Below are positions 20,569 to 22,563 of a stretch of DNA of 22,563 bases, piece after piece. The DNA comes from a virus. The stretch lies in the IMG/VR virus record IMGVR_UViG_3300047481_000299, positions 1-22,563 of that record; one strand, written 5' to 3'. Position numbers and translations under genes: made by a program. Each line of letters starts with the position of its first letter. Within the stretch, counting starts at the first letter, position 1. The notes below the pieces were generated by a model. The model saw only the letters and a program-made list of their open reading frames with translations, searched no databases and was not told the DNA's origin.

Positions 20569-20817
20569 TTGCAGAAACGCACTAGAAGTATATTGGCAGA
20601 ACTGGATGGTCTTGGATTAAAACGAGATAGAGAACATTTCGTAGAATCCAGGGCTACTAATGTTATTCAAAGTGCCATCAATTTATTACAGTTTATCAAG
20701 GAAAATTATGACATTGAAACCGCCGGTGAACTTGAAAGACGTTTGTTAAATAGTATACGCAGTGGAGATACCAATAAATTTACTCGTGGTATAAGAAAGT
20801 TAAAAGATGAAAGTTAA
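20569..20817 (+). CDS. Conserved T4-like phage hypothetical protein
   Basis: An 82-residue, charged, all-helical protein. I use the TTG at 20569 because GGAG at 20558-20561 is 7 nt upstream; a TTG at 20563 is too close to it. The sequence RSILAELDGLGLKRDREHFV, then ESRATNVIQSAINLL, then AGELERRLLNSIRSGD and FTRGIRKLK matches a pattern I recall as conserved in marine T4-like phages, always without a function. The basic C-terminus may contact nucleic acid. It is the first gene of the final plus-strand operon and overlaps the next by 11 nt. Confidence 0.65.
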   Translation: MQKRTRSILAELDGLGLKRDREHFVESRATNVIQSAINLLQFIKENYDIETAGELERRLLNSIRSGDTNKFTRGIRKLKDES

Positions 20818-21535
20818 TGAAGTTACAACAATAGACGAAGGTCCATGGGATATAATGCGTCGCGGATGGCAAGGCATGAAGTCTGCGTATCGTGCTGGGC
20901 AAGATAAACTTATGGCCAACAAAATATCTAGTAGATTGATGAGAGACTGGGCGGGATATGCACAACAAGTAGAAAATAATTATAACGTAACAGATTGGTC
21001 TAAGGTGTTACAGTCATATGGTAATCTTTCTTTTCCCAATGTCAAATCTAGTATACCAGTTCCAAAAATTACTTCACCAGGTGGTGCTTTCTTTGATTCA
21101 AACATAGCCAATTATATCAAAGCCAGAACTCAAGAATATATGCAAATGCAAGGTCAAAAAGACGACTTTCCAGACTTAGACGCTAAACCGGATCAACCTG
21201 TTCCGGCCACAGAACCACCAAAACCAGCACCAAAGCCTGTGGCCCCAGAAATAGTACCACAGGATTCAGCCGGGCCGAGTAGAATGGTATCTGTGCATCC
21301 ATACCAGGGTATATCATATGCCTACAACGTAATTAAGAATCAATGGATAAACAATCGTACAAATCAAGTCATAGACGATCCTGGGATGATTAAACAACTT
21401 AACATTTCTTATAACAAAGCTAATCAGAGACCTACGTTATACAATATGACCCCGGCTGATAAATTAGCTCAACAACGTGACATTAAACAAAGAAAAGCAG
21501 CACAACGAGCAAGAACAGAACTAGGAATGACCTAA
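20807..21535 (+). CDS. Hypothetical phage protein with proline-rich linker, possible packaged protein
   Basis: A 242-residue protein. The N-terminal domain (~1-115) is basic and helical. Residues ~127-155 form a Pro/Ala/Lys-rich linker (PATEPPKPAPKPVAPEIVP). The C-terminal part starts VSVHPYQGISYAYNVIKNQW and ends in a highly basic helix (QQRDIKQRKAAQRARTELG). The first residues MKVNEVTTIDEGPWD carry I-D-E before Gly, resembling the (I/L)xE cleavage site for the T4 prohead protease gp21, so it may be packaged and trimmed. I recall related small proteins in marine T4-like phages with unknown roles. The stop overlaps the next start (TAATG). Confidence 0.6.
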   Translation: MKVNEVTTIDEGPWDIMRRGWQGMKSAYRAGQDKLMANKISSRLMRDWAGYAQQVENNYNVTDWSKVLQSYGNLSFPNVKSSIPVPKITSPGGAFFDSNIANYIKARTQEYMQMQGQKDDFPDLDAKPDQPVPATEPPKPAPKPVAPEIVPQDSAGPSRMVSVHPYQGISYAYNVIKNQWINNRTNQVIDDPGMIKQLNISYNKANQRPTLYNMTPADKLAQQRDIKQRKAAQRARTELGMT

Positions 21536-22239
21536 TGTACGTAATAAGAGAAGGTGGTAATGCCATACCCAGTAGTAATCCAGTAGCAAAAGATGACATA
21601 AAAGAAGTGGTAGCTAGGGCCAAGTCTTTGTTACCACCTGCTATTGCTAAAGGTACTCAAGTTGATATAGGTAGTGCTGGATACAAAATAGAATCTGGTG
21701 ACATTGATATTTTTGTTGAAGCACAGGATGTGGTTGACTTTTTCAAAACTGCAGAAGCAAAAGATCCTGTAAAAGATGCCAAACAAATGCTTAAGCGGTA
21801 TTTTGAGGAACAGGGAATACAAAGCGTAGTTATAGGACGCAATGTGCATATAGGAATTCCTTATCGTACAGCACAAAATAAATCTGGATTAGCTCAGGTA
21901 GATGTAATGGTCATACATGATGCTGCTGTGGTCGCTCCTTGGCATCAACATGGTCCGCGTGGGGCTTATGATGACCCCGATTTTAAAGGTAGTGAAGTCT
22001 TTATTTTATTAAACAGTTTAGCCAAATTCAAAAATTTAAAATTTGATGCGTTTGGTGGAAAGCTAATGCAAAGAGATACAAATCAAGTAGTAGGCAGAAC
22101 ACGCAAAGAAGTAGCTAAAATTTTATTAAATCCTGGAGCCAAAGAACGAGATTTAGACAGTGTTAAAAATATTATGGCAGCACTGGCCACAGATCCAGAT
22201 CGAGAAGGTAAACTTGCACAAGCTAGACAAGATCAGTGA
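21535..22239 (+). CDS. Nucleotidyltransferase-fold protein
   Basis: A 234-residue protein. Residues 46-59 (GSAGYKIESGDIDI) match the G-S-x-x-x-K-x-x-S-x-D-I-D signature of the DNA polymerase beta-like nucleotidyltransferase superfamily, with Asp56 and Asp58 as likely metal ligands. QVDVMVI (121-127) supplies the expected third Asp123. Known members add nucleotides to RNA, proteins or antibiotics; the substrate here is unclear. A typical polyA-polymerase C-terminal domain is not evident. TAGGA lies 8 nt upstream of the start. The N-terminus MYVIREGG contains I-R-E before Gly, again like a prohead-protease site. It is followed after 13 nt by a ligase-like gene, so the two could act together in RNA or DNA end repair. 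Confidence 0.75.
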   Translation: MYVIREGGNAIPSSNPVAKDDIKEVVARAKSLLPPAIAKGTQVDIGSAGYKIESGDIDIFVEAQDVVDFFKTAEAKDPVKDAKQMLKRYFEEQGIQSVVIGRNVHIGIPYRTAQNKSGLAQVDVMVIHDAAVVAPWHQHGPRGAYDDPDFKGSEVFILLNSLAKFKNLKFDAFGGKLMQRDTNQVVGRTRKEVAKILLNPGAKERDLDSVKNIMAALATDPDREGKLAQARQDQ

Positions 22240-22252
22240 TGACAAAATTAAA

Positions 22253-22563
22253 ATGAAAAGTTATAACGAATATCTAGTAGAAGCAGCAGAAGGACCACGT
22301 ATACCTCACCCAGAGGATAGTATATTTGACGGTAGTCAAAGTGCTTTGAAGTATGTGCAGGCGTTGCAAGGCATAGCAGCTAACCCCACTTCGGTAACTA
22401 TAAAATGGGATGGATCTATTGCTTTGTATTTTGGTAGAGATGCTCAAGGTAGATTCTTTATCGCAGACAAATATATGCCAGCAAAGGGAGTTTATCCAAC
22501 TAGTCCTAAGCAGTGGATAGACTATGACCAAAGTCGTGGTGCTAACAGAAACGACCTTTATGC
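22253..22563 (+). CDS. KxDG ligase-like protein (truncated by the window end)
   Basis: An open frame of at least 103 residues running off the end of the window. Residues ~47-65 (VTIKWDGSIALYFGRD) contain the K-x-D-G motif, in which the lysine is adenylated in ATP-dependent nucleic-acid ligases and capping enzymes. I recall similar marine phage proteins (sequences beginning MKSF-like and carrying IKWDG). The N-terminus MKSYNEYLVEAAEG closely resembles the T4 capsid-targeting peptide of internal proteins (MKTYQEFIAEA), with L-V-E followed by Ala as the probable cut. No SD is seen before the ATG. Only the start of the catalytic domain is present, so enzyme class and completeness cannot be judged. 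Confidence 0.65.
   Translation, partial: MKSYNEYLVEAAEGPRIPHPEDSIFDGSQSALKYVQALQGIAANPTSVTIKWDGSIALYFGRDAQGRFFIADKYMPAKGVYPTSPKQWIDYDQSRGANRNDLY

Follow-up and report, generated by a model that had tools for sequence, protein, structure and literature searches.

The internal proteins IPI-IPIII of phage T4 carry diverse cargo, small proteins of inhibitor type, behind a conserved 10-residue leader that has a hydrophobic or aromatic residue at positions 4 and 7, L or I at position 8, E at position 10 and a small residue after the cut. The cleavage rule of the gp21 protease is L/I-x-E, and the targeting determinants of IPIII are leader residues 4, 7, 8 and 10 (PMC9026906). A comparable arrangement is described here in virus record IMGVR_UViG_3300047481_000299 of IMG/VR, whose 22,563 nucleotides (hereafter the window) are a 22.5-kb fragment of the source phage genome. 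Four of its genes, p0 to p3, are read as a cassette of virion cargo in a T4-related jumbo phage, one that includes a nucleic-acid end-repair pair, a reading to which we give a probability of about two in three. The cassette shares with T4 the leader layout and the diversity of cargo behind it, and a gp21-type protease is encoded in a relative of the window phage; it differs in that its cargo is a pair of nucleic-acid enzymes, in its shorter p2 leader and in that its cleavage and packaging are predicted.

Two further systems resemble the enzyme pair formed by p2 and p3. In jumbo phages, the nucleotidyltransferase RlaP (PF10127), of the Pol-beta fold, is linked to KxDG ligases of Rnl type, and both are thought to reverse the damage done by host nucleases (PMC7824862); the available part of that source makes no mention of packaging leaders. 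The cassette differs from these systems in that p2 has no PF10127 match and p3 belongs to DUF6267, not to a named Rnl family. In African swine fever virus (ASFV), a minimal family X polymerase, PolX, is likewise paired with an ATP-dependent DNA ligase, and the two are described as repairing viral DNA (PMC5330486). In comparison, the cassette is that of a phage, its modelled p3 ligase lacks an OB domain, and no apurinic/apyrimidinic (AP) endonuclease was found in it.

The features of the cassette are given below, a slash marking the predicted cut.

20569..20817, +, p0: small conserved protein marking the start of the cassette; TTG start at 20569, alternatively 20563; N-terminus MQKRTRSILAE/L
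20807..21535, +, p1: cargo protein of 242 residues
20807..20839, +, predicted cleavable leader of p1, MKVNEVTTIDE/GP, by the (L/I)xE/small rule (PMC9026906); E11 at 20837-20839
21535..22239, +, p2: family-X-polymerase-like nucleotidyltransferase, 234 residues in the window
21535..21552, +, predicted short leader of p2, MYVIRE, cut before GG; E6 at 21550-21552
22253..22563, +, p3: DUF6267 ligase-like protein, of which the N-terminal 103 residues are present before it runs off the window end; KWDG motif I at residues 51-54
22253..22282, +, T4-type leader of p3, MKSYNEYLVE; ATG at 22253, E10 at 22280-22282, predicted cut before AA

Leaders and predicted cleavage sites

A preliminary description of this DNA had drawn attention to the starts of p1, p2 and p3, and its account of them holds: the three consecutive open reading frames each begin with a leader ending in (L/I)xE before a small residue. 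The T4 start with which it compared them, MKTYQEFIAE/A, was wrongly ascribed to IPI, since it is the start of IPII and IPIII, IPI beginning with MKTFKEFTSTTTPVSTITE/A. The third sequence had rightly been singled out as the closest match, the p3 leader having the exact T4 layout, with the residues needed in IPIII at positions 4, 7, 8 and 10. In p1 and p2 the site is present, but the leader is irregular or short, which makes the match to T4 a partial one.

The conservation of these N-termini was followed across 130 p2-bearing and 129 p3-bearing loci, some of which are overlapping pieces of one contig; the counts use distinct N-terminal strings, which share descent and are not independent trials. 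A genome-wide regular expression for leaders, applied to the 354-kb contig of a relative, returned few leaders and several obvious chance matches, and tests at the level of families were used instead. In p2, 46 of the 47 distinct strings ahead of the domain end with [LIVMF]xE followed by GG or SS; the position before the E is unconstrained (Y, Q, K, S, H, F, N, T, V, R or L), which fits the prediction of the L/I-x-E rule. For p3, 70 of the 72 distinct leaders have the same [LIVMF]xE ahead of the conserved domain (mean of 500 shuffles 25.6, maximum 36), 49 of 72 the fuller pattern PhixxPhi[LIVMF]xE (shuffle mean 1.9, maximum 8) and 22 of 72 the exact 10-residue T4 layout (positions 4, 7, 8 and 10), one p3 leader reading MKTYREFLTE/A, close to the T4 start quoted above. 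Leader length and residues vary among relatives, and the cleavage site is constant. The leader is of low confidence in the structure models of both p2 and p3, as for a flexible tail, and residues 1-7 of p2 fall below a predicted local distance difference test (pLDDT) value of 50.

The variable tagged slot

The small protein p0 matches phrog_11854, a head and packaging family annotated as "virion structural protein" (E 9e-15), and has homologues in isolated jumbo phages, PA5oct and CBB among them. No convincing family was found for p1 in Pfam or PHROG scans. In different phages, the slot between p0 and p3 is occupied by unrelated proteins, many of which share one type of start (MKTNEVITE/GP, MKANEIIQE, MKINEVISE/A, MKINDVISE/A, MKIRDIILE/W, MKIRDIILE/G, MKVQDILSE/A, MKINEVITE/S), as expected of a sorting tag. 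Clustering of the proteins by the sequence that follows the leader gave 13 families inside the slot, 4 of them tagged, and 131 outside it, of which 4 were tagged (p = 0.002). The largest tagged family outside the slot, with 33 members encoded a few genes downstream, begins with MRAKEFAFE, MRINEIILE or MRIKEIIFE; this MRxxEIxxE/ family aligns with CBB_299 and a Vibrio phage protein, M1, R2 and E9 being invariant.

Two individual proteins may be added. One of 450 residues, tagged MKIRDIILE/W (L020:8628-9980), has a weak match to GNAT acetyltransferases and is a possible further packaged enzyme. The other (L076; 219303-220124 of the 354-kb relative, minus strand) starts with MFLHDILNEDTRRDVLRKFGAGAAAAAG, in which a leader-like stretch is followed by a twin-arginine-like one.

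Virion and head-gene evidence from related phages

In PA5oct, the gene order is primase, helicase, p0, gp258, gp257, ligase-like gp256, gp255, gp254 and nucleotidyltransferase gp253, and the database record flags gp258, gp257, gp254 and gp253 as detected by electrospray ionisation tandem mass spectrometry (ESI-MS/MS). Of these, gp253 is the p2 homologue (GSTGKFPVTGDIDLAID; p2 profile E 3e-5). The isolate collection searched holds no phage with the tagged pair, PA5oct being the nearest one for which mass spectrometry data exist. The ligase-like gp256 carries the motifs KIDG, EGYVIR and KIVD. In the Sinorhizobium phage Phosso, a ligase-like gene adjoins a nucleotidyltransferase gene after p0. 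A ligase profile matches these two proteins weakly in hhalign (PA5oct gp256, E 0.003; Phosso gp446, E 0.15), so both are called ligase-like from their motifs and position. The flagged gp257 (L106:6835-8034) contains an internal SIINE/GPLDFLSRAW, similar to the start of a p1 relative (TLDE/GPLDVMRQGW in L002) and sharing with p1 the GPLD..W motif behind the site, and this internal INE/GPLDFLSRAW site suggests that gp257 may be a precursor cut in two. For CBB, the published virion list includes CBB_292, the p0 homologue, detected by ESI-MS/MS, together with CBB_294, CBB_298 and CBB_299 (PMC5259590, Table 4).

A gp21-like protease, the presence of which the preliminary description had proposed to check, is encoded in two relatives. 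In the 354-kb relative (G001), an S77 (gp21-family) protease lies at 16741-17379 (E 5e-26) with a scaffold-like gene adjacent, and its Gp23 capsid protein (E 7e-99) has an N-terminal region reading ..KMLAE/NASAG; a protease of the gp21 family is also present in relative G007.

The possibility has to be considered that these are ordinary N-termini, in which (L/I)xE reflects coincidence or a constraint of gene overlap, and that the enzymes act unpackaged, after their expression in the cell. The very short p2 leader and the lineages that keep the enzymes and lose the leaders would agree with it. It is nevertheless rather improbable, given the site in 46/47 and 70/72 distinct leaders as compared with shuffled sequences, the recurrence of one leader on unrelated proteins and the syntenic homologues positive in mass spectrometry. 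Packaging of the tagged cassette proteins in the head is considered quite probable, the virion data being those of related phages.

The proposed leader code in cyanophages

Many proteins encoded in the block after gp41 in Kyanoviridae begin with M(K/L)xFxx(F/Y)(L/I)xE. A virion proteome of cyanophage S-CREM2 has been published (PMC10665884), and it contains five of the six S-CREM2 proteins with the strict T4 layout (p = 0.003): a S-adenosylmethionine (SAM) hydrolase (MKDFDSFLEE), a kinase (MKRFDAFLTE), a cytidylyltransferase (MKNFSSFLTE), gp13 and gp136. A Cas9-like protein, also detected in the S-CREM2 virion (OR473000), has a looser leader slightly further in, LRFASFMAE/AA. The authors of the study state that carry-over of such proteins during purification could not be excluded, and in the portion of the paper at our disposal no mention of T4-type leaders on these enzymes was found (PMC10665884).

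In S-SZBM1, the detected proteins include a cytidylyltransferase with a leader of shifted spacing, MRFRQFIIE/A, and not its DUF6267 neighbour, which is leaderless. Pooled over S-CREM2 and S-SZBM1, the strict layout gives p = 0.014; with a looser leader expression significance is lost (pooled p 0.055). Taking into account this loss and the absence of enrichment in S-SZBM1 by itself, the association in S-CREM2 is regarded as supporting evidence only: the cyanophage data back the leader code without proving it.

It may tentatively be proposed that T4-related jumbo phages carry a modular slot for leader-tagged head cargo, including a dedicated polymerase-plus-ligase end-repair kit, and that the same code decides what is packaged across T4-like phages, including marine cyanophages with hitherto unexplained virion enzymes. 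From such a readable N-terminal code it could be predicted which of a phage's enzymes are carried by its particle. Applied to S-CREM2, the code picks out the SAM hydrolase, the kinase and the cytidylyltransferase, and in a looser form the Cas9-like protein.

The nucleotidyltransferase p2

The predicted structure of p2 (AlphaFold, pLDDT 86) has a nucleotidyltransferase fold, in line with what had been guessed from its sequence. It resembles the family X palm (Foldseek E 2e-6; VIA Z up to 9.7 over 174 residues, 3.7 A), the matches being pol lambda (Z 9.7), pol beta (9.5) and ASFV PolX (9.4). The protein bears the motif GSAGYKIESGDID...QVDVMV, the pattern GS..GDID...QVD being invariant, and G46, S47, G55, D56, D58 and D123, that is, the GS-x-GDhDh metal-binding motif and a third Asp, are invariant in 29 sequences. 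No Pfam match was obtained up to E 0.1, and no curated profile for family X or nucleotidyltransferases was reached; hence, p2 is called family-X-like only. A PHROG scan gave no convincing family, and a sequence-profile search of the PDB gave nothing useful. A screen of 84,980 prokaryote genomes with the patterns used confirmed no p2 relative. Taken together, p2 is identified from its model as a family-X-polymerase-like nucleotidyltransferase. Its identification as RlaP was rejected, the PF10127 profile giving no match up to an E value of 10 across the five genomes or records searched, where the controls were positive.

In relatives, p2 has about 261 residues, with some 28 additional C-terminal residues and a conserved LPE..GT.AWF that are lost in the window, where the gene is shortened by a 64-nt frameshifting deletion with respect to the near-identical contig L024 and other relatives. 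This deletion, at 22230-22240, is either a natural variant or an assembly artefact.

The ligase-like protein p3

From its first 103 residues alone, p3 exceeds the curated cut-off of DUF6267 (PF19782; 38.8 bits vs 27, E 9.7e-10), and a form fused to p2 reaches 99.9 bits; a fused protein of this kind has 625 residues. Relatives carry KxDG, EGFV and KLV motifs, KxV being invariant; in full-length relatives K51, D53, G54, E326, G327, V329 and K338 are all invariant (KxDG, EGxV and the motif V lysine), and of these the window holds motif I only. A full-length relative (L002), modelled at pLDDT 90, has a probable KxDG ligase fold, and the earlier ligase-like assignment was right in kind. All 50 of the VIA matches listed for it are RNA or DNA ligases, the best being Naegleria RNA ligase (Z 7.6), followed by T. 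brucei REL1 (7.1), with 6.6 for the best DNA ligase; a PDB sequence-profile search gave nothing useful. A helical insertion lies ahead of motif IV; past motif V the chain ends after about 20 residues, too few to accommodate an OB domain.

On this modelled fold and on its motifs, p3 is called a KxDG ligase-like protein of DUF6267, the family that in T4-like cyanophages (T4-GC 71) is likewise encoded downstream of the replicative helicase. Several of the cyanophage copies inspected are leaderless and had no p2 beside them, in which the tagged p3 differs. No mention of DUF6267 was found in the literature searched. A ligase-like fold is suggested for this family, whose function had not been assigned and which occurs in hundreds of records of T4-like phages.

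Pairing of p2 and p3 and their possible substrate

In 124 of the 130 p2 loci p3 is also present, in the mapped ones next to p2 or with one gene between the two, and in five contigs (L027, L028, L029, L030 and L153) both proteins form one polypeptide. We consider it fairly probable that p2 and p3 act jointly in end repair. It could be argued that they have a structural or maturation role in the head, on enzyme folds that were domesticated and are inactive, with leaders that serve for head assembly only, taking into account that several members of the slot are annotated as virion structural proteins. However, even widely diverged relatives keep the same catalytic residues (GS..GDID..VD in p2; K51, D53, G54, E326, G327 and K338 in p3), which makes this explanation quite improbable.

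If p2 and p3 are an end-repair pair, two substrates can be envisaged. One possibility, tentative, is that they are packaged for RNA repair, p2 restoring nucleotides and p3 resealing RNAs, tRNAs among others, that anticodon nucleases of the host have cut within minutes of the start of infection. The top structural matches of p3 are RNA ligases, past motif V it has little sequence and no OB domain, the ligase-like protein that occupies this slot in Phosso matches PF09414 RNA_ligase weakly (E 0.02, below the cut-off), and RlaP with its RNA ligase offers a precedent. However, differences in ligase Z of less than 1 are ties, p2 has no RlaP match, and the best p2 matches are family X DNA polymerases. 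The latter (Z 9.0-9.7 for pol lambda, pol beta and ASFV PolX) would fit packaged DNA gap repair, in which the phage genome, on its entry, would have its gaps filled by p2 and its nicks sealed by p3, as is described for PolX and ligase in ASFV (PMC5330486). The position of the cassette beside the replication helicase agrees with this proposal, which is likewise tentative; against it are a p3 without an OB domain and a cassette in which no AP endonuclease was seen. Present evidence does not separate the RNA from the DNA reading.

Proposed mechanism and points against it

In the proposed process, the leaders of p1, p2 and p3 would bring these proteins into the prohead core, where a gp21-type protease would cut the leaders after (L/I)xE, and the mature enzymes would stay in the head. 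They would then enter the cell together with the phage DNA; p2 would add missing nucleotides at broken nucleic-acid ends, and p3, as an adenylating ligase, would then seal them. We infer cleavage, packaging in the window phage, injection, catalysis and substrate (nuclease-cut tRNA or nicked/gapped phage DNA) from the evidence given above; for injection into the host, the balance tips only slightly in favour.

Several observations weigh against this mechanism. As regards the leaders, that of p2 is mostly of 5-11 residues, often 5-6, vs the about 10 needed in T4, and it is absent from PA5oct p2, which begins approximately at the residue expected after the cut, from the fused p2-p3 proteins, which begin with MSQTSTGNG, and from several cyanophage DUF6267 proteins, which begin at the domain. 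Leaderless versions of the enzymes exist, and the tag is therefore gained or lost without the enzymes being tied to it. As regards the virion data, the ligase-like gp256 of PA5oct bears no mass spectrometry flag, the flags in that phage are not fully specific, as they also mark probable contaminants (for instance UvsX and RIIB), and none of three strict-leader proteins of S-SZBM1 was detected among 30 virion proteins. A search of 12 other contigs, all of them fragmentary, gave no gp21-like protease. Lastly, the ligase Z values of p3 are modest, at most 7.6, and Foldseek alone is weak (best E 0.11).

The preliminary description had proposed that p2 and p3 may be packaged in the head and injected as effectors against host nucleic acids or defences. 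What stands of it is that the leaders have the marks of T4 capsid-targeting sequences, with a conserved site, a variable leader and one leader shared by unrelated proteins, that a relative has gp21-type head genes, and that related phages have neighbours positive in mass spectrometry and one homologue that is positive as well; the leaderless lineages and the often short p2 leader weigh against it. For the pair, a role in end repair is a better fit than that of a generic effector. The T4 internal-protein principle would thereby be extended from small proteins of inhibitor type to a pair of nucleic-acid repair enzymes.

Neighbouring genes

Two replication genes precede the cassette.

17383-18789, DnaB-type helicase, upstream of p0
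18786-20510, (-), DnaE-like polymerase gene with PF07733 and a finger domain, between the helicase and p0

A separate piece of 188 residues at 7977-8543 (+) matches phrog_11778, DNA polymerase; together with the DnaE-like gene, it apparently forms a split replicase of the Pol III-alpha type. Between both, at 9425-16204, the window encodes a protein of 2259 residues with many degenerate repeats, which is probably a fibre or other virion protein.
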